A stretch of 64,000 nt of DNA. It comes from an uncultured Pseudomonadota bacterium. Lineage in GTDB: Bacteria; Pseudomonadota; Gammaproteobacteria; Burkholderiales; Rhodocyclaceae. Shown here one piece after another: positions 2,907 through 20,101 of this stretch (position 1 is its first letter; each line of letters begins with the position of its first letter). The translations under genes were made by a program, and so were the position numbers. Below the pieces are notes generated by a model. That model did not search any database. It saw nothing but the letters and a program-made list of their open reading frames with translations, and had not been told where the DNA came from. The DNA lies in contig CAIQBG010000015.1 in the NCBI GenBank assembly GCA_903870055.1, positions 1 through 64,000 of the forward strand, given 5' to 3'.

Positions 2907-5900
2907 TTATCGGGACGCCACAGACCCTATTCTATCGGTTTGTGCGCCCTCTTCCCGTGGTTTTCTGGTAAATCGATCCAGCGCCAGAAAAACAACCGGT
3001 GTCGTGTAAAGGGTCAGGATCTGACTCAGAATCAGGCCGCCAACAATCGCAACGCCAAGCGGTACGCGGAGCTCTGCTCCATCGCCCTGCCCGATCGCCA
3101 GTGGAATGGCAGCAAATAAAGCGGCAAAGGTGGTCATCATGATCGGCCGGAATCTCAGTAGACAGGCCTGGTGAATCGCTTCACGCGCCGCCAGCCCAGT
3201 GCGTTGAGCCGAAATGGCAAAGTCGATCATCATGATCGCGTTTTTCTTGACGATCCCGATAAGCAGGATGACACCGATCAGCGAGATGATATTGAAGTCA
3301 GTATCCGTGGCCAGAATAGCCAGTAAGGCGCCAACACCCGCCGATGGGAGTGTCGACAAAATGGTGAGCGGATGAATCAGGCTCTCGTAAAGCATGCCAA
3401 GAACAATATAGACGGCGATAATTGCCGCCAGTATCAATAGTGGCTGAGATTTAAGCGATGCCTGGAAGGCCTTGGCACTGCCAGAGAACGTGCCACGGAT
3501 CGAATCAGGGACGCCCATGTCATAGAGCGTGTTTTGAATGGCTTCGGTCGCTTGCGAAAGCGAAACACCCAGGGGTAGATTGAAAGATAGGGTTGAAACC
3601 ACGAAGGCCCCTTCGTGGTTCACAGCCAAGGGGGTTTTATCCGGCAGAATGCGAGCCACATTACTCAATGCTACTTGGCGCGCCGGGGTAGTTGCTGTTG
3701 ATGGCACCGTCAGCATCAGGCGATCCAGCGTATCCGGGCTTTGCGTGTATTCCGGCGCCGCTTCCAACACCACACGGTACTGATTGAGTGGGCGGTAGAT
3801 GACGGATACCTGTCGTTGGCCAAATAGATTGTTGAGTGCAGCATCAATTATTTTTGGCGTAACGCCCAGTCTGAATGCCGCATCCCGATCGATTTCAACA
3901 CGCGTTTGCAGGCCCTGATCCTGCTGGTCGGTATTAACGTCTGCCAAAACGGGTAGTTTGGTTAACGCAGCACGAATCTTGGGCTCCCATTCACGCAGTT
4001 CTTCCAGGTCGTCACTCTGCAGTGAAAACTGATACTGCGCATTCGATGGGCGGCCGCCAATACGGATATCCTGCATTGGGACCATAAATAGCCCTGCTCC
4101 AGGTTCCTTACCCAGTTTTGGGCGTAACCGATTAACCACCTCATCGGCCGAAACATCCCTGTCACCTAACGGTTTTAAAGAAATGAATACGATGCCGCTG
4201 TTGCGTTGAGACCCGCCGGTAAAGCCTGAGACTTTATCGACTGCCGGATCTGCTTGAATGATGCCGATGAATTTGGTCAGCTTGTCCTTCATGGTGCCAA
4301 AGGAGACAGACTGATCAGCCTGGATGAAGCCCATAATTCGGCCTGTATCCTGTTGCGGAAAGAATCCTTTAGGAACGATCTTGTATAGCTGAAAGTTAAG
4401 AACGATTGTTAGCAAAAGTCCGGTAAGCATGAATTTTCGGTGATCAAGCGCCCAGCCAATGGTGTTGGCGTAACCTTTATAAACCCAGTCAAATGCCCGG
4501 GTAAAAGCTTCCTGTAACCAATGCAACCCTCGGGTCATGTATTGGCCCACTAATTGAAATTTATTGCGACGGGTCTTCGTGGCGGTATGAATTTTGGCTT
4601 CATGATCGCGCAGCAAAATATCGGTCATCATGGGCGTTACCGTCAGTGAAATCACCATCGAAATCAGGATGGCGATAGACAGCACAACGGCAAATTCACG
4701 AAATAGACGCCCAATGATGCCGCCCATTAACAAAATGGGCAGAAACACGGCAATCAGTGACAGGCTGATGGAAATTACGGTGAAACTAACTTCCTTCGTT
4801 CCTTGTAATACGGCTTGGCGTAGCGGCATGCCTGCTTCGCGATGCCGGGTAATATTTTCCAGTACAACAATCGCGTCATCCACGACAAAGCCAGTGGCAA
4901 TCGTTAGCGCCATTAGGCTCAAGTTATCCAGGCTGTAATTGCACAGATACATGATGCCGAAGGTACCGATCAGAGATACGGGTACGACAATGCCCGGAAT
5001 AAGCGTCGCACGCCCATTTTTGAGAAACAGATAGACGGCAAGAATCACTAATGCCACTGACAGCACCAAGGTTCGCTCGACTTCTTTGAGCGACGCCAGA
5101 ATTGTTGGCGTTCGATCCATCACGGTTTCTATGCGTATACCGGCAGGAATCGATGCCTCAAGCTGCGGCAGCACGGCCTTAACACGAGCCACCGTTTCAA
5201 TAATGTTGGCCCCGGGCTGACGATAGAGAATGAGCGTCACGGAGCGCTGGCCATTGGTTAGACCGATATTGCGCACGTCCTGTACGGAATCGGTAACGGT
5301 TGCTACATCTTCCAGCCTGACAGGCGCGCCATTGCGCCAGACCACAATCACCGGTTTGTAATCGGCTGCCGTTTTAGCCTGATCATTTGCCTGGACTACC
5401 CATTGCCGGTGATCATTCTCGAGTGTGCCCTTGGGTAGGTTCAGATTAGCCTTGAGTACCGCCGTACGAATATCCTCACTGCTGATCCCCATAGCCTGTA
5501 TGACAGCGGGTATGACGGTCACGCGAACGGCTGGTTGGGCACTTCCCCCAATGACGACTTGCCCAATACCGCTGATTTGCGATAGCTTTTGCGAGAGAAC
5601 TGAATCTGCCACATCATAGACATGGAAGACATCAAGAATTTCGGAAGTTAGTGCCAACACCATGATCGGTGAATCAGCTAGATTGACCTTGCGGTAGGTG
5701 GGATTGGAAGGCAAACCAGTCGGAAGTAAGGCACGGGCTGCCACAATGGCTGCCTGTACATCGCGGGCAGCCCCATCGATATTGCGATCGAGATCAAACT
5801 GTAGCGTGACATTGGTAGAGCCCTGGGTGCTAAACGAGGTCATTTCCGTAATGCCGGCAATACGGCTTAACGAACGTTCCAGCGGCGTTGCGATACTTGA

Positions 5901-10601: not shown

Positions 10602-11222
10602 ATGAAAAACCCTACACAGAAAAAACATGGCGGCGCGCGTGAAGGTGCCGGTAGAAAAGCGACTTTTCTGGAAGCAACGAAACCCGTGAGGATTCCACTT
10701 AGCCAGATTGAGTCGGTACGCGCCTTTCTGCATCAGCAGGTATTTCCGGAGGCTGGCATCAAGCCCATCCATGTCGCTACCAATCCGGTGCCGAACAAGC
10801 TACCGGTGTTTGCCTCGGGTGTCCGGGCCGGCTTTCCCAGCCCAGCAGATGATCATGCCGAACCAGGCCTTGATCTGAATCAGTTGATCGAAAACCGTGC
10901 GAGTACTTTCTGCGCCTGGGCCGAAGGTGACAGCATGCAAGACCTAGGGATTCTCGATGGCGATCTCATGGTAATCGACCGTTCCCTGACGCCGCGCCAC
11001 GATGATGTGGTGGTAGCCGATCTCAATGGTGCTTTCACTGTTAAACGCTTGGTCCAGAAAACGAGTGGCAGCTTTCTAATGCCCGCCAACCCAGATTACG
11101 CACCCATTCCCATCAAGCCCGATGATGAAGTCCGGATATGGGGCGTTGTCGTACGCGTCATCCACGATCTGCGGGCTACAGGTCGTCGCAAACGCTCTGC
11201 AAACAGCAGCAAGAAAAAATGA
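10602..11222 (+). CDS. umuD: UmuD-like self-cleaving translesion polymerase subunit (S24 LexA-like)
   Basis: 206 residues from the ATG at 10602. The C-terminal S24 peptidase domain shows the Ser nucleophile (AEGDSMQD, Ser111) and general-base Lys (FTVKRL, Lys148), and a plausible Ala-Gly cleavage site (GVRAGFPSP, Ala76-Gly77). RecA-stimulated self-cleavage would yield UmuD', the partner of UmuC in error-prone polymerase V. It is longer than E. coli UmuD (139 residues) because of about 50 extra N-terminal residues including HGGAREGAGRKA, a motif common in plasmid and phage proteins. The stop overlaps the umuC start (ATGA). SOS control is expected but no clean LexA box was seen. Confidence 0.9.
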   Translation: MKNPTQKKHGGAREGAGRKATFLEATKPVRIPLSQIESVRAFLHQQVFPEAGIKPIHVATNPVPNKLPVFASGVRAGFPSPADDHAEPGLDLNQLIENRASTFCAWAEGDSMQDLGILDGDLMVIDRSLTPRHDDVVVADLNGAFTVKRLVQKTSGSFLMPANPDYAPIPIKPDDEVRIWGVVVRVIHDLRATGRRKRSANSSKKK

Positions 11223-12520
11223 GTGTGATGCGCCGACTGGCGCTGGTCGACTGCAACAATTTCTACGTCAGTTGCGAACAGGTCTTTAATCCGGCTTTGC
11301 GCAAACGGGTTGTTGTGGTGCTCTCCAATAATGATGGCTGCGTTGTCTCGCGTTCGGCCGAGGCCAAACAGGCAGGTATTGGCATGGGGGTGCCCTACTT
11401 CAAGGTCCGGCAGCAGCTAGAAGCTCTAGGCGGCATCGCCCTATCTTCCAACTATGCGCTCTATGCAGACATGAGCCATCGGGCAATGACGCTAATGCGA
11501 GACATGGCAGAAAGCCAGGAAATCTATTCCATCGACGAGTGCTTTCTGGATTTCTCGGCATTCACGCCGGATCAGGCGCTGATTCAGGCCACAAAGATTC
11601 GCCAGGCCTTATGGCAAAGCCTCAGCTTACCGGTATGCATTGGTTTGGGTGCCACTAAAACGCTCGCCAAGCTTGCAAACGAGATGGCTAAAACCCTGAA
11701 GGAAGCTTCCGGTATCTGTAACCTGAGCGATCCGCTATCCCCCTGGCGAGAAAGCCAGATGGAAGAGATGCCTGTCGGCAGCGTCTGGGGGATTGGCCGT
11801 CGCACCGCACGCTCCCTTGAAAGCATCGGCATCAAGACCGTTGGCGATCTGTTACAAGCGCCGCCACAGCGATTGCGCAAAAATTACTCAATCAATCTTT
11901 TCAGAACGTTGTCCGAGCTCAATGGACAGACATGCATCGGTTTTGAACAGGTAGCCCCGGCTCGGCAACAAATTATTGCTTCCCGCTCATTTGGTCATGC
12001 CGTTAAAGAAGTGCAGGACCTGAATGAAGCCCTCTCAACCTTTGCGACACGCGCAGCAGAGCGACTGCGTGCCGATGGGTCTTTAGCCTCTCATCTACAG
12101 ATTTACGTCCGGGGAAGCCCCTTTGCCGAACAGGCAAGCAGCCCTGACGACGCAATCAATATCCAGCTCTCATCGCCAACCAATGACACCCGGCGATTGG
12201 TCGATGCCACTTTATCGGGATTAAAACTTATCTACCGGCCAGGTCTTCGCTACAAGAAAGCCGGCGTCATACTTGGCGGCATCGTGCCCGCTCATCATTA
12301 CCAACCGGATCTACTAAGGACCCAATCCCATAACAATTCAAGCACGCTCATGCGCGTGATGGATCATATTAATGACCGTTTTGGTCGAGATGTATTACGG
12401 GTAGCCAGCATGGGACATCGGGATGAGGCTGACTGGCATATGAGCTGTTCCCGGCGATCACGGCGCTATACAACCACGCTGGATGAGCTCCCGGTATTCT
12501 CTTCTTTGGGCTTGTCGTAG
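11219..12520 (+). CDS. umuC: Y-family DNA polymerase V catalytic subunit UmuC
   Basis: 433 residues if read from the ATG overlapping the umuD stop (11219). The Y-family palm begins LALVDCNNFYVSCEQVF, with the second catalytic motif YSIDECFLDF. This is followed by a helix-hairpin-helix region (GIGRRTARSLESIGI) and the little-finger domain and UmuC C-terminal extension. With UmuD' it replicates across DNA lesions. The 4-bp ATGA overlap supports co-translation. A rightward tRNA gene with its own promoter follows 51 bp downstream. Confidence 0.93.
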   Translation: MSVMRRLALVDCNNFYVSCEQVFNPALRKRVVVVLSNNDGCVVSRSAEAKQAGIGMGVPYFKVRQQLEALGGIALSSNYALYADMSHRAMTLMRDMAESQEIYSIDECFLDFSAFTPDQALIQATKIRQALWQSLSLPVCIGLGATKTLAKLANEMAKTLKEASGICNLSDPLSPWRESQMEEMPVGSVWGIGRRTARSLESIGIKTVGDLLQAPPQRLRKNYSINLFRTLSELNGQTCIGFEQVAPARQQIIASRSFGHAVKEVQDLNEALSTFATRAAERLRADGSLASHLQIYVRGSPFAEQASSPDDAINIQLSSPTNDTRRLVDATLSGLKLIYRPGLRYKKAGVILGGIVPAHHYQPDLLRTQSHNNSSTLMRVMDHINDRFGRDVLRVASMGHRDEADWHMSCSRRSRRYTTTLDELPVFSSLGLS

Positions 12521-12571: not shown

Positions 12572-12647
12572 TCCTCGATAGCTCAGTTGGTAGAGCGCCG
12601 GACTGTTAATCCGTAGGTCCCTGGTTCGAGCCCAGGTCGAGGAGCCA
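12572..12647 (+). tRNA. tRNA-Asn (anticodon GTT)
   Basis: 76 nt with encoded CCA. The acceptor stem TCCTCGA pairs with TCGAGGA (12637-12643); the D-loop is AGCTCAGTTGGTAGA; the anticodon loop CTGTTAA has GTT at 12605-12607; the T-arm is CTGGTTCGAGCCCAG. It decodes Asn AAU/AAC. Its 3' half, starting in the anticodon loop, is the attachment core of the integrated element, and a copy of that half is found at 20052-20101. The gene remains intact on the left side. Confidence 0.97.
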
Positions 12648-12652
12648 AAATT
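12603..12652 (+). repeat. attL (tRNA-Asn 3' half), 50-bp direct repeat
   Basis: Identical over 50 bp to 20052-20101. It starts in the anticodon loop (CTGTTAATCCG) and ends AAAATT just beyond CCA. It is the left attachment site and keeps the tRNA whole. Confidence 0.92.
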
Positions 12653-12657
12653 CGATG

Positions 12658-12696
12658 ATGGGCCAGTAATGAAGCGATGCTAAGTTACTGGCCCAT
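12658..12696. other. 12-bp perfect inverted repeat beside attL
   Basis: ATGGGCCAGTAA at 12658-12669 and TTACTGGCCCAT at 12685-12696, with a 15-nt loop. No T-run follows, so it is not an ordinary terminator. It may be an arm-type integrase or excisionase site, or block readthrough from the tRNA promoter. Confidence 0.5.
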
Positions 12697-12797
12697 ATAA
12701 GAAAATTGGCAGTAGTAAAACCTTGTGTGGCGCGTGAAAAGCGGCGGCAAGAAGGACACCAAATGTTTTTGGTATTCAATCTTGACCGGAGCGAAAA

Positions 12798-13751
12798 ATG
12801 CGACACGAAACTGCAGTGATCGTCCCCCTGACTAGGGGACAAATCTTCACCCTGAAGGAACTGGCCGACACTTACATGGCCTGTTACCAAGGGAGCGACC
12901 GCCAACAGGCCACACGACTGGCCTACTTCGTGCAACACCTGGGCGACAAGCCCGCGCACGACATCGATGGCGATGACATCCAAGACGTACTAGACGCCCT
13001 GCAGCTTCGCGGCCGCGTGCATAACCGTGGCGGTGCATCCCGTGATGCCCAGCTGGTGGAAACGCACAAGCCCCTGAAGCCCGCTAGCGTCAATCGCTAC
13101 CGCACCACCATTCAGGCCGTGCTGACCTGGGGCCGCAAGCGCCGCCTGATGCCCAAGGGCTGGATCAACCCGGTGGGCGAAACCGAACGGCTGCCCGAAG
13201 ACAACGTGCGCACCCGTTTTCTGTCCGAAGACGAATATCAGCGCCTGCTGAAAGCCGCCAAGGCGTCCTACTGGAAAAAGCTGCACGTGCTGATCAAGCT
13301 GGCTGTGACCACCGGCGCCCGGCGCGGCACGCTGATGGGCCTGCGCTGGGCTGATGTGAATCTGGACGATAAGCAAGCCTACGCCGAGCGCACGAAAAAC
13401 GGCGAACCCTTCGTGCTGGTGCTGCAGGATGATGTAGCCAATGAACTGAAGGCCCTGAAAGGCGCTTCAAAGGATGACGAACTGGTTTTCTGCGGGCGCA
13501 ACCCGTACAAGCCCATGACCCTGGAAAAGGCGTATTACAACGCCCTGGCGAATGCCGGCATCACGGGGGCGGTATTCCACACCCTGCGCCACACGCACGC
13601 CAGCTGGCTGGCCAAACAAGGCGCCCCACTGCTGGCCATTGCCGATTCGATGGGCCACAAAAGCCTGGCCATGACGAAACGCTATGCGCACCTGTGCATC
13701 AATACCCGCGCAGAAATGCTGTCCCGTGTGTTTGCCCAGGCCGCTGCCTGA
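12798..13751 (+). CDS. int: Tyrosine-recombinase integrase of the element
   Basis: 317 residues. An N-terminal SAM-like core-binding domain (about 15-115) is followed by a catalytic domain with Arg175 (TTGARRGTLMGLRW), the HTLRH box (His261, Arg264), His287 (MGHKSLAMTKRY) and the Tyr296 nucleophile. It catalyses site-specific recombination between a phage-type att site and the tRNA-Asn gene. The start is supported by GGAG eight bases upstream. It is the first gene inside attL and reads into the element, as in many tRNA-integrated islands. At 317 residues it is shorter than P4-type integrases (about 400) and lacks an obvious arm-binding domain. That places it nearer to Shufflon/XerC-like phage integrases. 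Confidence 0.93.
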   Translation: MRHETAVIVPLTRGQIFTLKELADTYMACYQGSDRQQATRLAYFVQHLGDKPAHDIDGDDIQDVLDALQLRGRVHNRGGASRDAQLVETHKPLKPASVNRYRTTIQAVLTWGRKRRLMPKGWINPVGETERLPEDNVRTRFLSEDEYQRLLKAAKASYWKKLHVLIKLAVTTGARRGTLMGLRWADVNLDDKQAYAERTKNGEPFVLVLQDDVANELKALKGASKDDELVFCGRNPYKPMTLEKAYYNALANAGITGAVFHTLRHTHASWLAKQGAPLLAIADSMGHKSLAMTKRYAHLCINTRAEMLSRVFAQAAA

Positions 13752-13782
13752 TCGCCCCCTGAACCTTTTGGAGATTCCAACC

Positions 13783-14034
13783 ATGACCAACAAAACCACC
13801 CAAACCAACGCCCACGAAGCCGCCCTGACTGCCGTGATCGATGAACTGCACACCCTGGCCGCCCTGGTGGGTGCTGCCGAGCAGGCCGCATTCGATTATT
13901 CCGTGGGCGAGAACCGAGAGCCGGAAGTTATCGACCGCATCAATCGCCTGATGCTGGTGGCGCGTGAGCGCATCGCCGCCGCCCTGGTGCGCGCTGATGT
14001 GATCCCTGGCCAACCCGTGAAACTGGTGGCTTAA
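13783..14034 (+). CDS. Small protein of unknown function
   Basis: 83 residues, starting MTNKTTQTNAHEAAL, mostly alpha-helical and Ala-rich with no Cys. The start at 13783 is preceded by TTTTGGAG at a good distance. It lies 31 bp after the integrase gene and is probably co-transcribed. No family recognised; small helical proteins in this position can be excision or regulatory factors, but nothing in the sequence shows this. Confidence 0.6.
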   Translation: MTNKTTQTNAHEAALTAVIDELHTLAALVGAAEQAAFDYSVGENREPEVIDRINRLMLVARERIAAALVRADVIPGQPVKLVA

Positions 14035-14042
14035 TTGAGTTT

Positions 14043-14095
14043 GCCGCGCCTAGGCTGATCCCCGAAAAACCGGAACCCTACCGGAATGGCGCGGC
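14043..14095. terminator. 8-bp inverted repeat between small genes
   Basis: GCCGCGCC at 14043-14050 pairs with GGCGCGGC at 14088-14095, followed by ACCTTTT. The loop is long (37 nt) and itself contains CCGG repeats. It could be a weak terminator or an RNA structure controlling the next gene. Confidence 0.35.
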
Positions 14096-14123
14096 ACCTT
14101 TTAGGGTGCGCAAGGGAGCGCAG

Positions 14124-14723
14124 ATGCAATTCAAAGAACAAGAACGCGCCAGGCTGCAGGCGCTACTGAATGACAGCGAACGGGCGGTGCAGCGCATCGA
14201 GGAATCGATCGGGCGCTATCAGACCATGCTGCCGATCGCCCGCCTGGTAGAACAAAAGCCCAGCGAGATAAAGAAAGACGCCGAAGACCTGCACCAGGCG
14301 CTGCAGACGCTGGTGCGCATCATCGCCAATGGTGGCGAAGCCTGGGACAATTTCAAAGCCAGCGCAGCCGAAGAAGGGCTGGCCGCACCGCTGCACTGCC
14401 TGGCTGAAGCCCTGGGCACCGGCGTCGGCGAACCAGGCGAAGCACTGGCCAGCGTGGCCCAGCAAAACGCCGCAGACATGACACCCACCCGCAGCCGGCC
14501 GCGCAGCCCTGAGAAAGCCGAGCGCTTCGTGCTGCTGTTTCATGTGATCGGCGCCGCCAATGATGCGGGCGTGCCGGTATCGCGTAGCAATGCCGACTTC
14601 CTGGAAATCATCGAAACCGCATATGAAGCGGCCGGCATATCGAACCGCACCCACGGCCGCGAATTCGGGCTGCACAACGCCGAAAACGATCTGAAGGAAT
14701 ACCTGAAGAAGGCCGCCGAATAA
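14124..14723 (+). CDS. Protein of unknown function, coiled-coil N-terminus
   Basis: 199 residues from the ATG at 14124, chosen because AAGGGAG sits six bases upstream; a GTG at 14106 is the alternative. Residues 1-80 are charged and heptad-like (EQERARLQALLNDSERAV), suggesting a coiled coil. The C-terminal 70 residues (RFVLLFHVIGAANDAGVPVS) form a separate, probably globular helical unit. No family recognised. Its place between int and the replication genes fits a regulatory or accessory role, which is only a guess. Confidence 0.6.
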   Translation: MQFKEQERARLQALLNDSERAVQRIEESIGRYQTMLPIARLVEQKPSEIKKDAEDLHQALQTLVRIIANGGEAWDNFKASAAEEGLAAPLHCLAEALGTGVGEPGEALASVAQQNAADMTPTRSRPRSPEKAERFVLLFHVIGAANDAGVPVSRSNADFLEIIETAYEAAGISNRTHGREFGLHNAENDLKEYLKKAAE

Positions 14724-14728
14724 GGGCT

Positions 14729-14764
14729 GGCAGGAAGTCAGCAAAAAACGGGGCACTTCCTGCC
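14729..14764. other. 10-bp perfect inverted repeat
   Basis: GGCAGGAAGT (14729-14738) and ACTTCCTGCC (14755-14764) with a 16-nt loop, just after the stop of the preceding gene. No T-run follows on the plus strand. It may be an RNA processing hairpin or a protein-binding dyad. Confidence 0.45.
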
Positions 14765-14847
14765 CTGCACACGCTTCCGCTGTATCGAGAAACTCCAAAT
14801 GTCGCCGCTAGTCACGGCCACACAAGGAACCTTTCGGAGATACACAC

Positions 14848-15093
14848 ATGGAACAACAGAAAACCCTTTCCGCCGTTGAGAACTGGCGAGATTTTCAACA
14901 GACCGCAGACGGTAGGCGCCTATTCCCTGGGCTGGAATCCCTGCGCTGGTTTATCCGCGAACACCGCGACAGCCTGATCCACGCCGGCGCCATTCTGAAG
15001 ATTCGCGGCCAGTGGCACCTGGTTCGCCCTGAATTCGATGAAGCCGTGATCCGCACCCTGCGTGAAAAAGCCCTGGCCACCCTGGCACATTGA
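14848..15093 (+). CDS. Small winged-helix-like DNA-binding protein, possible excisionase/AlpA-type
   Basis: 81 residues. The core SLRWFIREHRDSLIHAGA followed by ILKIRGQWHLVRPEFDEAV resembles short MerR-like winged-helix proteins found next to integrases in islands and phages: a helix pair, then a hydrophobic strand pair carrying RG-x-W-x-x-x-P. Such proteins direct excision or switch on island transcription (AlpA-type). The start is supported by TTCGGAG upstream. The family call is from pattern memory and is tentative. Confidence 0.55.
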   Translation: MEQQKTLSAVENWRDFQQTADGRRLFPGLESLRWFIREHRDSLIHAGAILKIRGQWHLVRPEFDEAVIRTLREKALATLAH

Positions 15094-15105
15094 CCGGGGG
15101 CGACC

Positions 15106-15345
15106 ATGCGAAGAATGAAGAAAGCCGCACCGGGGACTAGCCGGGCGGCTTCCAAGCGACACACGAAAACAAGCCCACATCATAACGGCCAGCGCACCCC
15201 ATTGCCAGCCCGTAGGGCCACCGCCTGGGGCCGATCGCTGGCGCTGGCTGCAGCCTTGCGTGCCGGCCTGGTGCAATGCCTGCGGGCGCTGAAATCATCC
15301 TGTGTGCGCAAGCCAGGGAAACCAGCCAATCGGGTGCCGCGATGA
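15106..15345 (+). CDS. Basic, Arg/Lys/Ala-rich small protein
   Basis: 79 residues beginning MRRMKKAAPGTSRAASKR, very basic throughout with about a dozen Arg in the first half. GGGGGCGACC precedes the ATG. Its stop overlaps the start of the next gene (ATGATG at 15342), an arrangement that usually means real translation. No domain recognised. It may bind nucleic acid because of its charge. It could also be a spurious frame in G+C-rich DNA. Confidence 0.4.
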   Translation: MRRMKKAAPGTSRAASKRHTKTSPHHNGQRTPLPARRATAWGRSLALAAALRAGLVQCLRALKSSCVRKPGKPANRVPR

Positions 15346-15578
15346 TGGGCATCACCGAAAAGGAATTCCACACGCTGCGGGCTAAGGCTGCGATGATGGG
15401 CTATATCCTGCACCGCACCGATGCAGACGATGGCCCCGTGAGCTACTTTGCCGAGAGCCAGGGCCAGCTGTATCACCTGCCCACCCCTGAAAGCCTGCTG
15501 GCCTTCGTGGCCCGTGCGCAACCGATCAGGAAGTGGGCATACCCGCGCCAGGCATTCCGGGCAATGAGGGGGCGATGA
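15342..15578 (+). CDS. Small protein of unknown function
   Basis: 78 residues, starting MMGITEKEFHTLRAKAAM, with the pattern GYILHRTDADDGPVSYFAE and YHLPTPESLLAFV. This alternation of short strands and helices is often seen in small phage and plasmid proteins encoded before replication initiators. The ATG pair overlaps the preceding stop, and its own TGA overlaps the next start (ATGA at 15575), so three genes are translationally chained. Function unknown. Confidence 0.55.
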   Translation: MMGITEKEFHTLRAKAAMMGYILHRTDADDGPVSYFAESQGQLYHLPTPESLLAFVARAQPIRKWAYPRQAFRAMRGR

Positions 15579-16375
15579 GCAACAACGCAATCAGCGCCAC
15601 CTGGAAGGCAGATATTCAGCCTGCTGCACGCAAGCTGGTGCTGCTATTCATGGCCGATTCCCTGAACGACAAAACCGGGCAACTGAATCCCAGCATCGAT
15701 GCTGTGGCCCGTGCCTGCGGTATGTCAGCAGCCCAGGCGCGCCGGCACCTTCACGCCCTGATCGATGCGGGCTGTTTGAGCGTGATCGGTAACAGCAACG
15801 GGGGGTATCACCGAGAAGCCAGCAGACGCTACCAGCTGCACCTGGACGCTGTGACCCCTTGCATCCATGCAACCCCTAGCACCCATGCAACCCCTTGCAC
15901 TGATGCACGAGACCCCTTGCATCCACGCACTGAACCCCTTGCATCCATGCACGAGACCCCTTGCACCCATGCAAGCCAAACCAGAAAGAACCATAAGGAA
16001 CCAGAAGGGAACCAGAAAGTAACGCGCGCGAATCGCGCCGATGCCACCTCTGATGCCTTCGCAACCTTTTGGAATGCCTACCCGAAGAAGGTGGGCAGAC
16101 AAGCCGCCGAAAAAGCATTCGCCAGGGTAAAGCAGCCGGCAGACAAGCTGGCACTGATCCTGAAGGCGCTGGCCTGGCAAACGGTATCAGAGCAGTGGCA
16201 ACGCGATGGCGGGCAATTCATCCCAAACCCGGCGACCTACATCAACCAGGGCCGATGGGATGACGAGCAGCCCACCGCCACCAGCACCACCAGCAAGGCG
16301 CACACCAGCCGCCATTCAGGCTTCGAAAAGATCAACTATCGGGAGGGCATCAACGATGATGGATCATTCAGCTAA
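15575..16375 (+). CDS. Lambda-O-like replication initiator with internal origin
   Basis: 266 residues from the ATG at 15575, preceded by GAGGGGGCG. Residues 1-90 form a winged-helix domain (PSIDAVARACGMSAAQARRH) like those of phage O and plasmid Rep proteins. Residues about 93-132 are a low-complexity His/Pro/Thr/Cys linker, which is the translation of the DNA iterons described separately. The C-terminal domain (FWNAYPKKVGRQAAEKAF, then FIPNPATYINQGRWDDEQ) matches the helicase-recruiting region of O-type proteins. It should bind the iterons in its own gene, melt the origin and load host helicase. No helicase loader or primase is encoded in the element, so host DnaB/DnaG are implied. Confidence 0.8.
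   Translation: MSNNAISATWKADIQPAARKLVLLFMADSLNDKTGQLNPSIDAVARACGMSAAQARRHLHALIDAGCLSVIGNSNGGYHREASRRYQLHLDAVTPCIHATPSTHATPCTDARDPLHPRTEPLASMHETPCTHASQTRKNHKEPEGNQKVTRANRADATSDAFATFWNAYPKKVGRQAAEKAFARVKQPADKLALILKALAWQTVSEQWQRDGGQFIPNPATYINQGRWDDEQPTATSTTSKAHTSRHSGFEKINYREGINDDGSFS
15854..15973 (+). repeat. Six 18-bp iterons, candidate replication origin inside the initiator gene
   Basis: Consensus ACCCCTTGCATCCATGCA, with the internal dyad TGCAT-CC-ATGCA. Copies begin at 15854, 15872, 15890, 15912, 15934 and 15956. The first three abut (18-bp period); the last three have 4-bp spacers (22-bp period). The 22-bp steps move the reading frame, so copies 4 and 5 are translated differently (DPLHPR, EPLASMH) from the others (TPCIHA-like). 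The DNA, not the peptide, is therefore conserved. This mirrors the lambda origin, which lies inside gene O. Confidence 0.85.
15977..16018 (+). other. Purine-rich AACCAGAA repeats, candidate unwinding element
   Basis: Directly after the iterons the plus strand reads AACCAGAAAGAACCATAAGG and continues with two more AACCAGAA copies. Nearly all bases are A or G, with AT content higher than in the flanking gene. In lambda an asymmetric AT-rich tract sits in the same place and melts first. Confidence 0.5.
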
Positions 16376-16616
16376 CACCGGCATCGCCAAGGTGCGCGCA
16401 GCACTGCAGCGAGGCGACAGCCTGACGCACATGGACGCGCTGCGCCGCTTCGGGCTGTGGAGCCTGGCAACCGCCATTCATTCGCTGAAGGGCCAAGGCA
16501 TGGCGATCCATTCCAGGCTGATCAACGTGCGCACATCCACTGGCAACCTGTCCCGCGTGGCGCTGTATTCCCTTGACCCTGAAGCCAGCCATCCCGATGA
16601 AGTGTGCGATGCGTGA
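16356..16616 (+). CDS. Small helix-turn-helix protein
   Basis: 86 residues from the ATG at 16356 (a second ATG follows at 16359), overlapping the end of the initiator gene by 20 bp. GGGAGGG lies eight bases upstream. The core LTHMDALRRFGLWSLATAIH and LKGQGMAIHSRLINV followed by RVALYSL is the pattern of the short phage winged-helix family often placed near replication genes: an LT-x-x-x-A-L-x-x-F-G start, then a recognition helix, then a wing ending in Y-x-L. It probably binds DNA as a regulator. The overlap with the initiator gene suggests coupled expression. Confidence 0.65.
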   Translation: MMDHSANTGIAKVRAALQRGDSLTHMDALRRFGLWSLATAIHSLKGQGMAIHSRLINVRTSTGNLSRVALYSLDPEASHPDEVCDA

Positions 16617-16774
16617 TCAGTTAGCGCACAAGGCTGGCGCACAGCACAGGCACCGGCCTGGCATGGCCCCCGGCATCAAGGTACTTCCGAAGGCCCCACC
16701 CCATGCGGGGCGAAACGGCCCGCCTAGTTTCCCTTGTGAGTGCCCTTCGAATTCCACTTCCAAACTTCCAAACC
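16617..16774. other. Non-coding gap before the small-terminase gene, candidate packaging site
   Basis: 158 bp between the HTH gene and the terminase gene, with a small GC hairpin (GCCCC-ACCCCAT-GCGGGGC) near 16694-16712 and a pyrimidine tract (CTTCGAATTCCACTTCCAAAC) near the end, shown here split by position only. In lambdoid phages cos/cosB lies immediately upstream of the Nu1 gene, so this is the expected place for a packaging signal. No cohesive-end sequence is recognised. Confidence 0.3.
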
Positions 16775-17269
16775 ATGAGCATTGACGAAATGACCGTAAG
16801 CGATCGTGACCTGGCGCAGCTGGCCGGAGTGAGCGATCGGCGCATCCGGGCAATGGCAGAGGCCGGCATCCTGGAAAAGCATGGGCGCGGCAAGTATCTA
16901 CTGGGGCCATCCATTCGCGCCCTGCTGAATAACGCCGCAGACAACGCCAGCGAACTGCAGCGAGAGCGCACGCGCAAGATGGCTGCTGATGCTGACCTGG
17001 CCGAACTGGAATACGCCAGGCGCAAAAGCCTGATCGCGCCAGTGGCACAGATGCAGCTGGCGCTGGAAAGCATTTTCGCCCTGGTGCGCGCCAGCATGAT
17101 GAACATCCCGCAGCGCACTGCGCTGCAGATTGTGGGCGACACAGACGAGGCCCGCATTAAGCGGGTGCTGGATGACGAAATACGGGCGGCCCTGACCGCC
17201 ATGGCCGATGCCGAACTAGGCCCCGATTTTTTTGACACCACAACGGAGGAAACCAGCGATGGCAAATGA
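16775..17269 (+). CDS. Nu1-like terminase small subunit
   Basis: 164 residues from the ATG at 16775; 16790 is another possible start, and neither has a strong ribosome binding site. An N-terminal winged helix (DRDLAQLAGVSDRRIRAMAE, then GILEKHGRGKYLLGPSI) is the DNA-recognition domain typical of Nu1/DUF1441 proteins. A charged helix follows (ERTRKMAADADLAELEYARR) with the R-x-K-x-A-x-A-x-L-x-x-L-E pattern used for oligomerisation. In lambda this subunit selects DNA at cos for the large terminase. No large subunit is encoded here, so the protein probably redirects a helper phage's motor to satellite DNA. Confidence 0.8.
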   Translation: MSIDEMTVSDRDLAQLAGVSDRRIRAMAEAGILEKHGRGKYLLGPSIRALLNNAADNASELQRERTRKMAADADLAELEYARRKSLIAPVAQMQLALESIFALVRASMMNIPQRTALQIVGDTDEARIKRVLDDEIRAALTAMADAELGPDFFDTTTEETSDGK

Positions 17270-17492
17270 AAACAAACTGAAGCAGGCATTCAAGCGGGCG
17301 AAGCGATACCTGGCACCACCCGCAGCCGAAGAACTGCGCCCAGTGCACCTGGCTGCAGCCAGGGAGGCTATCGCGCGCGCTGCCGATCTGATCGATGCAG
17401 CCGAAGCCGAAGCCGAAGCTATCAAGGCTGGCGACCACGCCCTGGCAATGGCCCTGGGCGACCAGCATCACGCGCTTGATCGGCTTCGATAA
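17259..17492 (+). CDS. Small helical protein of the capsid module
   Basis: 77 residues, starting MANENKLKQAFKRAKRYLAP, overlapping the terminase gene by 11 bp; CGGAGGA lies nine bases upstream. It is nearly all alpha-helix, basic at the N-terminus and acidic in the middle (DAAEAEAEAIKAGDHALA). By position, between small terminase and capsid protein, it could be a scaffold or head-completion protein. No family recognised. An open stretch in the +1 frame directly after it (17493-17607) ends at the capsid start codon. Confidence 0.55.
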   Translation: MANENKLKQAFKRAKRYLAPPAAEELRPVHLAAAREAIARAADLIDAAEAEAEAIKAGDHALAMALGDQHHALDRLR

Positions 17493-17603
17493 CACCGACA
17501 AGGCAAAAGCGGAAAAACCACAAGAGGAAAAAGCGCCAGAGGAAATTAACACTGTGGGCCTGAATACTTCGCAAGACAGCAACCCAACCAGGACACCACC
17601 AAC

Positions 17604-18539
17604 ATGATCGAAGCCCGCACCCAGATTCGCGCATTGCTTGCCGATGCACAGAACCAGACCGCTTTCGTTTCCCACACGCCGGAAGGCTTCACCGAGCCAA
17701 CCGCGTATTTTTCGAAAAAGCCAGCCACCACTGGCACGCTGAATCTGGTTTCCACTTTCCTGCCCAGCATGGCGGCTGCCGATGGCAACCTGTACGGCCA
17801 GCCGATCGCCACCCCTGGCGGTGAAATGGCCACCCTATCTGCCGGCATCCTGGTGAATTCGCGCTGCGCTGCAGCTGGCGCCACGATCATCACCCGCCCC
17901 GATCCGAGCCGCGCCATTGCCGTGGGTTACGACAAGGGCATCGCATTCCAGCGCGTGGCGAAATACTTCAGCACCATTGAGGCTGCACCGTTTGCCACCA
18001 CCGCTGATGATGTCGATGTGGCCGCTTCGAATCTGCCGATCAGCCGCACCACCATGGACTGGTCGGCCAGCATTCAGAAATCGGTGCGCTTCGAATTGCC
18101 CCGATCCCTGCAGCGCCAAATCGGTTACGAACAAATCGTGGATGAAGTGATCCTGGCCTTCGTGCTGGGCCTGGCGCGCGCCGCTGATGCTGTGCTGCTG
18201 AATGCGATCGAAGCCAGCACCCCGGCAGCCTTTACCGCTGCCGCTGCGGCTGCCAAGGGCGTGCGCATCACTGAATTGCGCGCCCTGGTCGGCACCAATG
18301 GCACCGGCGCCACCTGGCGCGGCGATGGCCAATTCGCCGCCGCTGGCGGCATCCTGGCAGACACCACAGCCGACATCGCCGGCACCGTGATCGGCAGCTT
18401 CGGCCGCGCTGGTGTGGCCATTCACGAATCAATCGATCTGATCATCGAACGGCGCAACACAAAGGGCGATCTGGTGCTGACTGCGCACGCCAACATGATC
18501 CCGCTACTGCCGAACCCTGGCGTTTTCTGGACTGCCTGA
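17604..18539 (+). CDS. HK97-fold major-capsid-like protein
   Basis: 311 residues. Features match HK97-type capsid proteins: a middle segment FELPRSLQRQIGYEQIVDEVILAF followed by an R-A-A-D-A-V-L-L-N-A-I helix (spine helix and P domain, split here by position). An A-domain-like region (residues about 205-285) with strands IHESIDLIIERRNTKGDLVL precedes a C-terminal strand. There is no long N-terminal delta/scaffold region and no protease gene nearby, so it may assemble without proteolytic maturation. It is preceded by CAGGACACC and overlaps an upstream stop in ATGA form. The fold assignment is by pattern and position after a small terminase; a structure prediction would settle it. Confidence 0.65.
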   Translation: MIEARTQIRALLADAQNQTAFVSHTPEGFTEPTAYFSKKPATTGTLNLVSTFLPSMAAADGNLYGQPIATPGGEMATLSAGILVNSRCAAAGATIITRPDPSRAIAVGYDKGIAFQRVAKYFSTIEAAPFATTADDVDVAASNLPISRTTMDWSASIQKSVRFELPRSLQRQIGYEQIVDEVILAFVLGLARAADAVLLNAIEASTPAAFTAAAAAAKGVRITELRALVGTNGTGATWRGDGQFAAAGGILADTTADIAGTVIGSFGRAGVAIHESIDLIIERRNTKGDLVLTAHANMIPLLPNPGVFWTA

Positions 18540-18541
18540 CC

Positions 18542-18889
18542 ATGCTGGCCGGAATCATCAAGGCATTCCCCTGGGGCTTCATCCACGCAATCAAGCGCGG
18601 CAAAGCGGCCCTACCTGATGACGTGGCGGCCGTAATCGAGGCCGCACGCATCACCGAACGCCATGGCGATGAAGACAACGGGCCGCGCATTGCCGTGGCC
18701 CTGGGTGGCCCCTTGCGTGGGATGTTTATCTATTCCCATGAGGAAGCCGAAAGCCGAATTCGCGCCAGGTGGCCGTGGCTGAATGATGCGCAGCTGAAGC
18801 GCGCTGTGTCCTACCTGGATGCACGTGTGCGCCTGGCTGCGCAACCCAACAAACCCAGCAAGCGAAAAAGCTGGATTTTCGACTACTGA
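18542..18889 (+). CDS. Unknown protein downstream of the capsid gene
   Basis: 115 residues, starting two bases after the capsid stop. It begins MLAGIIKAFPWGFIHAIKRG, an amphipathic or weakly hydrophobic N-terminus, continues with helices (DDVAAVIEAARITERHG) and ends in a basic tail KPSKRKSWIFDY. The tight spacing suggests translational coupling with the capsid gene. It might be a head-decoration, minor head or size-determining factor; no family is recognised and nothing in the sequence shows such a role. Confidence 0.6.
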   Translation: MLAGIIKAFPWGFIHAIKRGKAALPDDVAAVIEAARITERHGDEDNGPRIAVALGGPLRGMFIYSHEEAESRIRARWPWLNDAQLKRAVSYLDARVRLAAQPNKPSKRKSWIFDY

Positions 18890-18900
18890 AAGGCGAGTAC

Positions 18901-19068
18901 ATGAACCAAGCAAAACCCGAAGACGAAATGCCACCCGTGGCCGTGCGTGTGCTTTCTGCCTTCTACGTGAAAGGCCAGCTGGCGCGCCCTGGTGCGATTG
19001 TGAAACTTGACCCATTCGAAGCGCGCGAATTGATCGCCTGCGAAAAGGCCGAGCCCGTTCAGAACTGA
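18901..19068 (+). CDS. Small phage-head-region protein (DUF7210-like)
   Basis: 55 residues, with AAAGGCGAG directly before the ATG at 18901. The pattern VRVLSAFYVKGQLARPGAIVK followed by LDPFEARELIACEKAEPV (split here) matches a family of 50-60-residue proteins commonly encoded just after the major capsid gene of siphophages: a beta-strand pair with a 'V..G..V..LD...A.EL...KAE' signature. Its presence supports descent of this module from a phage head operon. Molecular role unknown. Confidence 0.6.
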   Translation: MNQAKPEDEMPPVAVRVLSAFYVKGQLARPGAIVKLDPFEARELIACEKAEPVQN

Positions 19069-19079
19069 AAACAGTGTCA

Positions 19080-19098
19080 CCGCCATGGCCGATGGCGG
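19080..19098. other. Perfect 7-bp hairpin
   Basis: CCGCCAT-GGCCG-ATGGCGG, twelve bases after the previous stop. No T-run follows. It may act with the terminator hairpin further on. Confidence 0.4.
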
Positions 19099-19141
19099 CA
19101 GTAATCGGCCGTTTCCTTGCCCTTCCCCCGGGGGCTTCAAT

Positions 19142-19186
19142 GGGGGGCCCGAATGCCCGGAAGGCGTAAGGGCCGCCCCTTTTTTT
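19142..19186 (+). terminator. Rho-independent terminator after the capsid module
   Basis: GGGGGGCCC (19142-19150) pairs with GGGCC-G-CCCC (19170-19179), followed by seven T residues (19180-19186). It separates the capsid module from the last two genes, which would then need their own promoter or antitermination. Confidence 0.65.
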
Positions 19187-19193
19187 GGAATGA

Positions 19194-19520
19194 ATGATGA
19201 CCCCAGACGATGAACTTTCAGCGATGCGCACGATCCTGTGCAACCTGGAGCAGCGTGCCACCCAGGCGCGCCACACCTTCCCCAGCCTGAAATCTGCAGC
19301 CAGCATGGCCGCGATGACCCTGGCGCATGACCTGGCCATTTTGGGCCAGGAATTCATCATCCTATCGGTGAAGCTGAAACAGGCCGCCCGCGATGAGGCT
19401 GCCCAGGAAGCCGATGCAGTCAGAGAGGCGCAAGGCGGGCGCAAGATCGCCCCCAGGGTAACAGCAGCCAAAGCAGCCGCCACGATGATCAGAAACGGCG
19501 CTTATCGGGTGCAGGCATGA
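19194..19520 (+). CDS. Unknown helical protein
   Basis: 108 residues, starting MMTPDDELSAMRTILCNLEQ. It is almost entirely helical, with an Ala-rich middle (AASMAAMTLAHDLAILGQEF) and a basic C-terminus. A double ATG at 19194/19197 leaves the start uncertain by one codon. Its TGA overlaps the ATG of the next gene (ATGA at 19517), so the pair is translated together. No family recognised. Confidence 0.55.
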   Translation: MMTPDDELSAMRTILCNLEQRATQARHTFPSLKSAASMAAMTLAHDLAILGQEFIILSVKLKQAARDEAAQEADAVREAQGGRKIAPRVTAAKAAATMIRNGAYRVQA

Positions 19521-19870
19521 ACGACAAGGCACCGCCCCTGCTGGCGAAAATCGCCGCCCTGATCGGTAACGATCTGGCTGTGGCTTTGATCATCAATGCA
19601 CACACCACCGGCCGCAGCGGCTGGCTATACATTCCGCGCCGCCCAAAGCCAGGCAAGCGCCTGGTGAGCATGATCGGCATGGATGCTGCACAAAAGCTGG
19701 CCGGAGCCTTCGGCGGGCAATCGCTGGAAATGCCCAAGTGCCGCGCCATGTACCGAGAGCAGCGCAACGCTGAAGCCCTGCGCATGGCCGCGGATGGAAT
19801 GTCGCACCGGAGCATCGCGGAAGCTGTGGGCCTGACCGATCGCCAGGTGCGCAACGTGCTGGCCAAATAG
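19517..19870 (+). CDS. Mor/C-like transcriptional regulator
   Basis: 117 residues. The C-terminal third is a clear helix-turn-helix (MSHRSIAEAVGLTDRQVRNV). The region before it (GWLYIPRRPKPGKRLVSMIG and AGAFGGQSLEMPKCRAMYRE) follows the Mor/C activator layout: a 'G..lYIP' strand motif, a basic segment, an 'F.G....el...Y' turn, then the HTH. In Mu these proteins activate middle and late genes. Here the gene sits last, beyond a terminator, and could switch on the element's own or a helper's late promoters. The family assignment is moderately sure; the targets are unknown. Confidence 0.65.
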   Translation: MNDKAPPLLAKIAALIGNDLAVALIINAHTTGRSGWLYIPRRPKPGKRLVSMIGMDAAQKLAGAFGGQSLEMPKCRAMYREQRNAEALRMAADGMSHRSIAEAVGLTDRQVRNVLAK

Positions 19871-19894
19871 CCGACAGCCACCACCCAACTGCTG

Positions 19895-19932
19895 CCCCCT
19901 GGTGCCGAAACAAGGCAACGTCAGGGGGTTTT
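19895..19932 (+). terminator. Rho-independent terminator at the element's right end
   Basis: CCCCCTG (19895-19901) pairs with CAGGGGG (19922-19928), with an inner GTGCC/GGCAAC stem, followed by TTTT. It closes the last transcription unit of the element. Confidence 0.65.
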
Positions 19933-20051
19933 CATTGCTGCAGACCGTTGATCCCAGACCAACGGACAAAAGCACCATTCGCCCCTTGTTGACGCGGTGA
20001 AAAATGGTGTAAAGTGGCGCCAGGTGTTCTTCTTCCGGCGCCCAGAGACCT

Positions 20052-20101
20052 CTGTTAATCCGTAGGTCCCTGGTTCGAGCCCAGGTCGAGGAGCCAAAAT
20101 T
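20052..20101 (+). repeat. attR, 50-bp direct repeat of the tRNA-Asn 3' half
   Basis: Identical to 12603-12652. It lacks the 5' half of the tRNA, so it is not a functional tRNA gene. It marks the right junction of the element. Confidence 0.92.

Follow-up and report, generated by a model that had tools for sequence, protein, structure and literature searches.

A 64,000-nucleotide stretch of DNA from an uncultured member of the Rhodocyclaceae (contig CAIQBG010000015.1, positions 1 to 64,000; here termed the window) carries a 7.45-kb element (positions 12603–20101) with the features of an integrated phage satellite. The element occupies a tRNA-Asn (GTT) gene (12572–12647, identified with ARAGORN) and is bounded by two identical copies of a 50-bp direct repeat, which covers the 3′ part of this gene and gives the attachment (att) sites attL (12603–12652) and attR (20052–20101). 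The GC content of the element is 60.8%, compared with 54.1% and 51.8% for its 5-kb flanks. All 14 genes, like the tRNA gene and the repeats, are read on the forward strand (rightward), and 83% of the element is coding. A first-pass annotation, made from the sequence alone, had described the repeats, which proved to be exact, and about 15 tightly packed rightward genes with ATGA overlaps; the orientation and the packing were upheld, while 14 genes were counted and only two of the four overlaps (4, 17, 11 and 4 bp) are of the 4-bp type.

A gene for a tyrosine integrase (12798–13751; PF00589, 6e-31) lies at one end of the element and points inward, and the genes for the small terminase (TerS), a capsid-type protein and its partner lie downstream of the replication genes. 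The replication region includes g7 (15575–16375), which encodes a lambda-O-like initiator (phrog_270, 6e-38; phrog_391, 7e-18) and contains an iteron array of 5.9 copies with a 22-bp period (15853–15973; Tandem Repeats Finder score 121). The origin of phage lambda sits inside its O initiator gene, and the array within g7 is probably the replication origin of the element. TerS is encoded by g9 (16775–17269; phrog_57, 1e-28), g12 (17604–18539) encodes the 311-aa capsid-type protein, and g13 (18542–18889), placed directly 3′ of g12, encodes a conserved partner with 23–41% identity to six aligned relatives. Near attR, g16 (19517–19870) encodes a Mor-like late transcription activator (phrog_836, 2.5e-23; PF08765, 6e-8). 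Thus, the integrase, the O-like initiator, the capsid-like protein and the Mor/C-like regulator named in the first-pass annotation were all recovered, as was TerS; the Pfam Nu1 match of g9 stays under the cut-off (E 0.024).

The annotation had also reported that no motor, portal or tail gene is present. In agreement with this, Pfam and PHROG scans of the open reading frames (ORFs) of the element revealed no gene for a large terminase (TerL), portal, protease, connector or tail protein. Among all frames of at least 40 aa, no further coding-strand frame exceeds 205 aa, so that those left over are too short for TerL or a portal protein. AlpA was absent from Pfam scans of 15 window ORFs, no primase was found among the Pfam and PHROG matches of window ORFs (an O-like initiator is present instead), and neither a pri-rep gene nor an Stl-type regulator was recognised in the element.

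The protein encoded by g12 gave no significant sequence match in Pfam, PHROG, NCBIfam or PDB. Its structure, predicted from an 8-sequence alignment with moderate confidence (mean predicted local distance difference test score, pLDDT, 63; predicted template modelling score, pTM, 0.62), shows an HK97-type fold. The titles of the best 50 of 462 Foldseek matches in PDB refer to phage or virus heads, gene transfer agents or encapsulins, and the same title classes were obtained for the best 50 of 370 chains (Z ≥2) in a structural realignment, a procedure blind to folds that Foldseek missed. Some of these titles give a phage name alone, and 3bjq is titled just “phage-related protein”. The realigned structures include the SaPIbov5 procapsid (7rwz; Z 7.0) and EcCI2 (9gyi; Z 7.7), a capsid-forming phage-inducible chromosomal island (cf-PICI). 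In BFVD, 23 matches were found at E ≤0.001, the best of which (3e-7) is to a major capsid protein, and most of the named ones are capsid proteins. An encapsulin identity was considered, given the encapsulins among the fold matches, but the neighbouring TerS gene favours a head protein. A fold search with g13 matched nothing (best E 0.5).

The delta domain of HK97 comprises about 100 residues. Residue 3 of the g12 protein aligns with residue 76 of the HK97 prohead, which leaves no room for such a domain; the capsid-type proteins of relatives from Variovorax, Paraburkholderia and Paracoccus (see below) are approximately 20 to 65 residues longer than g12.

The distribution of the capsid-type gene was examined by tblastn. 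No match to g12 was found in any of 50,697 phage records, and the result was the same with two other family members as queries. Five of 72,556 plasmid records were matched, and the same five were found with the family member from Vreelandella. Four of these are circles of 8.9–9.3 kb from Escherichia, Proteus and Salmonella, and the fifth, from E. coli, is 17.4 kb long and dimer-like. Their capsid-type proteins are 31–32% and their g13-like proteins 40–44% identical to those of the window. The Salmonella circle (L007) also encodes a TerS with 42% identity and, after it, a small protein with 33% identity to that of g10 (17259–17492); TerS is unlisted in the annotation of the four other circles.

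In E. coli, the capsid gene was detected in 65 of 5,426 genomes (64 chromosomal places and one plasmid), whereas the TerS gene of the type found in the E. coli element L014 is present in 17; these counts were obtained by megablast, which misses copies below approximately 85% identity. All five E. coli loci that were inspected lie between yhdJ and fis, and in each of them a 17-bp att repeat holds the published core of the PICIs integrated at fis. These five loci are fis PICIs as already described in PMC10111431. The enteric circles look like satellites maintained as plasmids. The annotation of the five circular records (L004, L005, L006, L007 and L008) contains no integrase, PLSDB classifies all five as non-mobilizable, and the fis att core is missing from L004.

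A scan of 84,980 species confirmed at least four further carriers, namely Paraburkholderia sacchari, Variovorax sp. Sphag1AA, Vreelandella maris and Paracoccus siganidrum; as these four loci were confirmed from 402 matches to two short patterns, the number is a lower bound. The corresponding elements are inserted in tRNA-Pro (Paraburkholderia; 8.65 kb, 49-bp att repeat), tRNA-Lys (Variovorax; 9.6 kb, 48-bp repeat), tRNA-Trp (Paracoccus; 9.0 kb, 51-bp repeat, 94% identical) and tRNA-Ser (Vreelandella; 8.6 kb, 16-bp repeat). Capsid searches of 297 genomes of the family, 399 of the order and 398 of the phylum returned the genome of the window itself and, in the phylum set alone, Vreelandella. Weak matches in G066 (E 1e-4) and G123 (4e-4) of the family set, G112 (0.004) of the order set and G1023 (4.5e-4) of the phylum set were dropped as chance, since they are short, partial and situated amid genes that, judged by eye, have a housekeeping appearance. 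The window capsid as a single query found no relative in IMG/VR, and a six-row capsid alignment found three loci there, every one of the enteric type. As far as these searches indicate, the g12 family is both rare and broad, with members in alpha-, beta- and gammaproteobacteria.

On one of the IMG/VR contigs, cf-PICI-like portal, connector, HNH, TerS and TerL genes (L010:148–6486) adjoin a relative of the window element, and an exact fis att core (5067–5081) separates the two. This arrangement is probably a tandem at fis.

The capsid-type gene and g13 occur together in six lineages, in elements of 7.4–9.8 kb that differ in integration site and in replication genes, and g13 directly follows the capsid gene in every lineage aligned; the g12 protein is 29–35% identical to its aligned relatives. 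Among the four distant elements the replication genes differ: one has an O-like initiator, one a phage helicase (phrog_256), one a primase/helicase (phrog_239), and one an unassigned 134-aa gene with three 34-nt repeats nearby. A TerS of the phrog_57 type is clear in the Paraburkholderia and Vreelandella elements. AlpA is present in the Variovorax element (L024) and in the E. coli element L014, and a phrog_836 late activator (2e-7) is encoded at the end of the Vreelandella element, by its last long gene. No unassigned coding-strand frame of TerL or portal length was found in the five non-enteric elements, and the annotation of the enteric ones names neither gene; the absence of portal and terL from relatives, which the first-pass annotation had proposed to test, was thus supported.

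Shortly upstream of the late genes, the Variovorax element contains a gene for an HslV-like peptidase (L024:8824–9261; phrog_1040, 1e-24), possibly a stand-in protease. The Paracoccus satellite encodes an anti-repressor (L026:13555–14397; phrog_63, 5e-53) and a BrnA antitoxin (L026:11956–12246; PF14384, 3e-27).

Syntenic copies at tRNA-Asn, which the first-pass annotation had proposed to seek, were found in part: one of four congeners examined (G128) carries at this site an element with a closely related integrase, but its capsid and TerS genes are different. This sister element (L038; G128:C67, 3104–11364; 8.2 kb) has a left flank matching that of the window element and an integrase 82% identical to its integrase. 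It shares a homolog of g4 (14848–15093; 68% identity) and a weak homolog of g6 (15345–15578; 39% over 56 aa). By contrast, its replication gene encodes an AAA-ATPase, its capsid gene is of the canonical HK97 type (PF05065, 2e-78; 93 residues precede the Pfam domain) and its TerS gene is of the P27 type (PF05119, 5e-17); neither portal nor TerL was seen among its frames. The combination of such a similar integrase with another capsid and TerS indicates that the chassis and the capsid–TerS pair recombine, and that one minimal design is realised more than once with parts that are unrelated. No significant relationship was detected between the canonical capsid and g12. The last gene of the G128 element shows weak similarity to Q antiterminators (phrog_127, 3e-5). 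A different 5-kb insertion with another integrase is present at the same tRNA-Asn in congener G021 (L036; G021:C1, 2112–7188).

Comparison of the window and G128 elements gave nonsynonymous and synonymous divergences (dN and dS) of 0.14 and 0.76 for the integrase and 0.20 and 0.58 for g4. For the capsid gene of the enteric members, the median dN/dS is 0.22 (range 0.09–0.32; 77 non-independent pairs from 13 sequences, none with stops). The integrase, g4 and the enteric capsid gene are thus under purifying selection, a point that the first-pass annotation had proposed to test for the genes of the element; for the capsid family the test applies to the enteric copies, the window capsid gene having no close relative.

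According to the same annotation, an element with its own origin, TerS and capsid, and everything else borrowed, matched no known satellite and was a candidate for a new type. This did not hold, since terS-bearing PICIs are on record and so are PICIs that carry a capsid gene, EcCICFT073 and PmCI172 among the latter (PMC6092414), as are SaPIbov5 and the fis PICIs; the window element is a divergent form of a satellite kind already known. Of all late genes, the one that Gram-negative PICIs carry most often is that for the major capsid protein, which occurs in 21 of 29 reference islands, and some PICIs have no alpA (PMC10111431). Of the features used to recognise Gram-negative PICIs, the window element shows an inward integrase, genes in one direction and a late zone with a capsid-type gene, but neither AlpA nor the primase/DUF5906 module, and so it falls outside strict PICI membership.

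Among the closest counterparts are the fis PICIs (PMC10111431). The capsid, g13 and TerS proteins of L014 are 31%, 39% and 40% identical, respectively, to those of the window, and its g10-like protein has the same accession as that of the Salmonella circle. In both cases the integrase gene comes first and points inward and the late genes are at the far end, and in the fis elements the att repeat holds the published core. L014, at fis, differs in encoding AlpA and a tape-measure protein and in having a primase-helicase region. The window element has none of these; its initiator is O-like, its activator Mor-like, and its integration site a tRNA-Asn gene.

Among the cos-type Staphylococcus aureus pathogenicity islands (SaPIs), SaPIbov5 likewise encodes an HK97-fold protein (Ccm) and takes the rest of the virion from its helper; for the window element this is judged from its genes and the structural model. 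Ccm replaces the helper capsid protein at the pentamers, giving a small isometric head (PMC8569155, PMC5052747). Unlike g12, whose family has no phage capsid relative detected by sequence, Ccm can be recognised as a relative of the helper capsid and carries at its N-terminus a delta domain, which is removed (PMC8569155, PMC5052747). EcCICFT073 and, by its description, PmCI172 also carry a capsid-type gene without a full head set (PMC6092414); EcCICFT073 differs in that a DNA primase family gene is annotated in it, and its capsid showed no match to the g12 family. The cf-PICIs also have their own capsid-type protein and TerS, but encode in addition portal, protease, connectors, HNH and TerL (PMC10690885), none of which was found in the window element. 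Phage-inducible chromosomal minimalist islands (PICMIs) are described in PMC10803314 as having no capsid-remodelling genes, whereas the window element has a capsid-type protein. No description of the g12 capsid family or of satellites of Jilinvirus was found among the papers listed in literature searches, whose scope includes few subscription papers and preprints.

P4-like satellites are defined by AlpA together with a primase-helicase, and by Sid/Psu; AlpA and the primase are absent from the scanned window ORFs. Capsid and TerS genes also occur in some of the virion-encapsidated integrative mobile elements (VEIMEs) and tycheposons known from marine bacteria. Both groups are named in PMC11389934 and PMC10803314.

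Candidate helpers were indicated by TerS and by the tape-measure protein of L014. With the window TerS as query, nine phages (Bas97, KA2-1, ep3, PT1, Arya, ECO1230-10, ECOO78, Alux-21 and ET-SD-TH) fill the first 13 of 39 phage records, at 34–36% identity. The same nine fill the best 12 of 144 records matched by the tape-measure protein of L014 (55–62% identity), and seven of them fill the first 10 of 31 records matched by its TerS (41–42%). Because these two proteins of L014 agree, phages of the Iiscvirinae type are a reasonable guess for the helper of the enteric members; for the window element the guess derives from TerS alone. The helper lineage is thus best guessed, from sequence comparison, to be myoviruses of this type (Jilinvirus/Aryavirus): ep3, for which the taxonomy was looked up, is a Jilinvirus of the Iiscvirinae, a subfamily which also contains Aryavirus. 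Phage ep3 encodes a GpA-type TerL, a lambda-type portal and a protease–capsid fusion, i.e. parts absent from the satellite. The ep3 capsid was rejected as a profile relative of g12: it aligned near its C-terminus, as did g12, but without significance (P 0.1). The tape-measure gene of L014 is full-length (L014:11928–14213; phrog_28, 5e-131) and is the sole tail gene annotated in the enteric satellites; its product could set the tail length of the satellite particle.

The window element is very probably a working satellite, as far as its sequence and those of its relatives indicate. With a probability of roughly 60%, this integrated phage satellite functions in the manner of a capsid-carrying PICI, forming a mixed, helper-dependent shell. 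Upon helper entry or induction, it would excise and replicate from the iterons in g7, the satellite TerS would direct the helper TerL onto satellite DNA, and the Mor-like g16 protein would activate late genes of the satellite, the helper or both. A precedent exists in P4, whose Delta protein activates late genes in P4 and in its helper. The HK97-fold g12 protein would join or partly replace the helper shell, yielding a head suited to a genome of 7.4–9.8 kb, and the helper would supply the portal, motor, protease and tail. Since g12 leaves no room for a delta domain and the element has no protease, Ccm-like partial incorporation is likelier than a shell of g12 alone, and a protein of about mature size, as g12 is, would fit a Ccm-like role best. 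The narrow size range across the six lineages, in which the enteric copies are non-independent, fits a small head of fixed volume; Gram-negative PICIs in general measure 10–20 kb (PMC10111431).

Several observations weigh against this interpretation. The fold matches of g12 in PDB never reach E 0.001, the underlying model is of moderate confidence (pLDDT 63), and all Z scores lie below 8, a range in which a match may reflect merely a common arrangement; what supports the assignment as a capsid protein is therefore the BFVD scores, together with the agreement among the match lists. That no sequence homology was detected between the g12 family and the capsids in the 50,697 phage records makes co-assembly less obvious than for Ccm. 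TerS is unannotated in four of the five inspected E. coli loci, doubtful in Paracoccus (an N-terminal stretch, 6e-4) and represented in Variovorax by just a weakly matching helix-turn-helix protein, so that TerS is not essential to the capsid–g13 module. As for a helper, the genome of the window contains no TerL of PF05876 or PF03237 (control genomes matched in 3/14 and 6/14 cases), and the ep3 TerL matched none of five genomes of the genus in a search with no positive control. Finally, deletion of the capsid gene of EcCICFT073 left transfer unaffected (PMC6092414), so that the capsid gene of a PICI may be dispensable for its spread.

Of the other explanations, a reduced cf-PICI, in which the capsid-type protein and g13 form the whole satellite shell and the helper gives portal, motor and tail, fares best, though it is unlikely. 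The capsid family was found just in satellite-like elements of narrow size, g13 is always the next gene in the aligned lineages, a position that would suit a scaffold or decoration protein, and cf-PICIs build their own shells (PMC10690885). Nevertheless, no protease, connector or portal gene was found, the window protein has no space for a delta domain, and Ccm alone cannot form shells (PMC8569155). It is somewhat more doubtful that the capsid-type protein serves interference or defence by poisoning helper head assembly, the satellite itself being packaged in ordinary helper heads. TerS may suffice for packaging, and the unchanged transfer of the EcCICFT073 mutant agrees with this proposal, but deletion of that capsid gene also failed to relieve interference (PMC6092414), its product has no detected similarity to the g12 family, and the narrow element size seems to suit a small head better than concatemer packaging. 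A prophage decayed by loss of portal, TerL and tail genes, as the few genes and the phage-type capsid and TerS might suggest, is very improbable, because the capsid gene and g13 recur in six lineages at different sites, the integrase, g4 and the enteric capsid gene are under purifying selection, no phage record matched the capsid with any of the three queries, and the att repeats are exact and the genes open; full-prophage relatives or gene decay, which the first-pass annotation had named as grounds for abandoning its proposal, were looked for and not found, the relatives being satellite-like.

What appears to be new is a satellite-restricted capsid family with its partner g13, absent from the phage records at the sensitivity used, and the occurrence of this family in a chassis without AlpA or primase. 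Its spread over three bacterial classes, the swapping of chassis and the helper lead are likewise new. A fuller version of the mixed-shell interpretation can be offered tentatively: a distinct satellite lineage, found across the three classes, would have retained its own capsid and g13 for such a time that sequence no longer reveals any phage relative, and would build mixed shells for genomes of 7.4–9.8 kb on Iiscvirinae-type helpers, the cassette of capsid and packaging genes being swapped between chassis to change helper, as between the elements of the window and G128 at tRNA-Asn. If this is true, satellite capsid proteins can belong to an old satellite-only lineage and need not be recent captures from helpers. 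The capsid-type protein and g13 form a defined pair with which to study how a helper shell takes up foreign subunits of the HK97 fold, and the question can be taken to the bench with the E. coli relatives and a candidate helper group in which some phages, such as Bas97, are recorded with E. coli as host.

The remaining genes of the window element are g2 (13783–14034), a small gene without Pfam or PHROG match; g3 (14124–14723; 199 aa) and g15 (19197–19520), both without significant family match; g8 (16359–16616), encoding a winged-helix protein (PF14090, 4e-11); and g14 (18901–19068), a small gene with weak PHROG similarity only (E 0.015). Directly upstream of the target tRNA-Asn lies a gene (11138–12520) which, from its sequence, we take to encode a UmuC-like DNA polymerase V.

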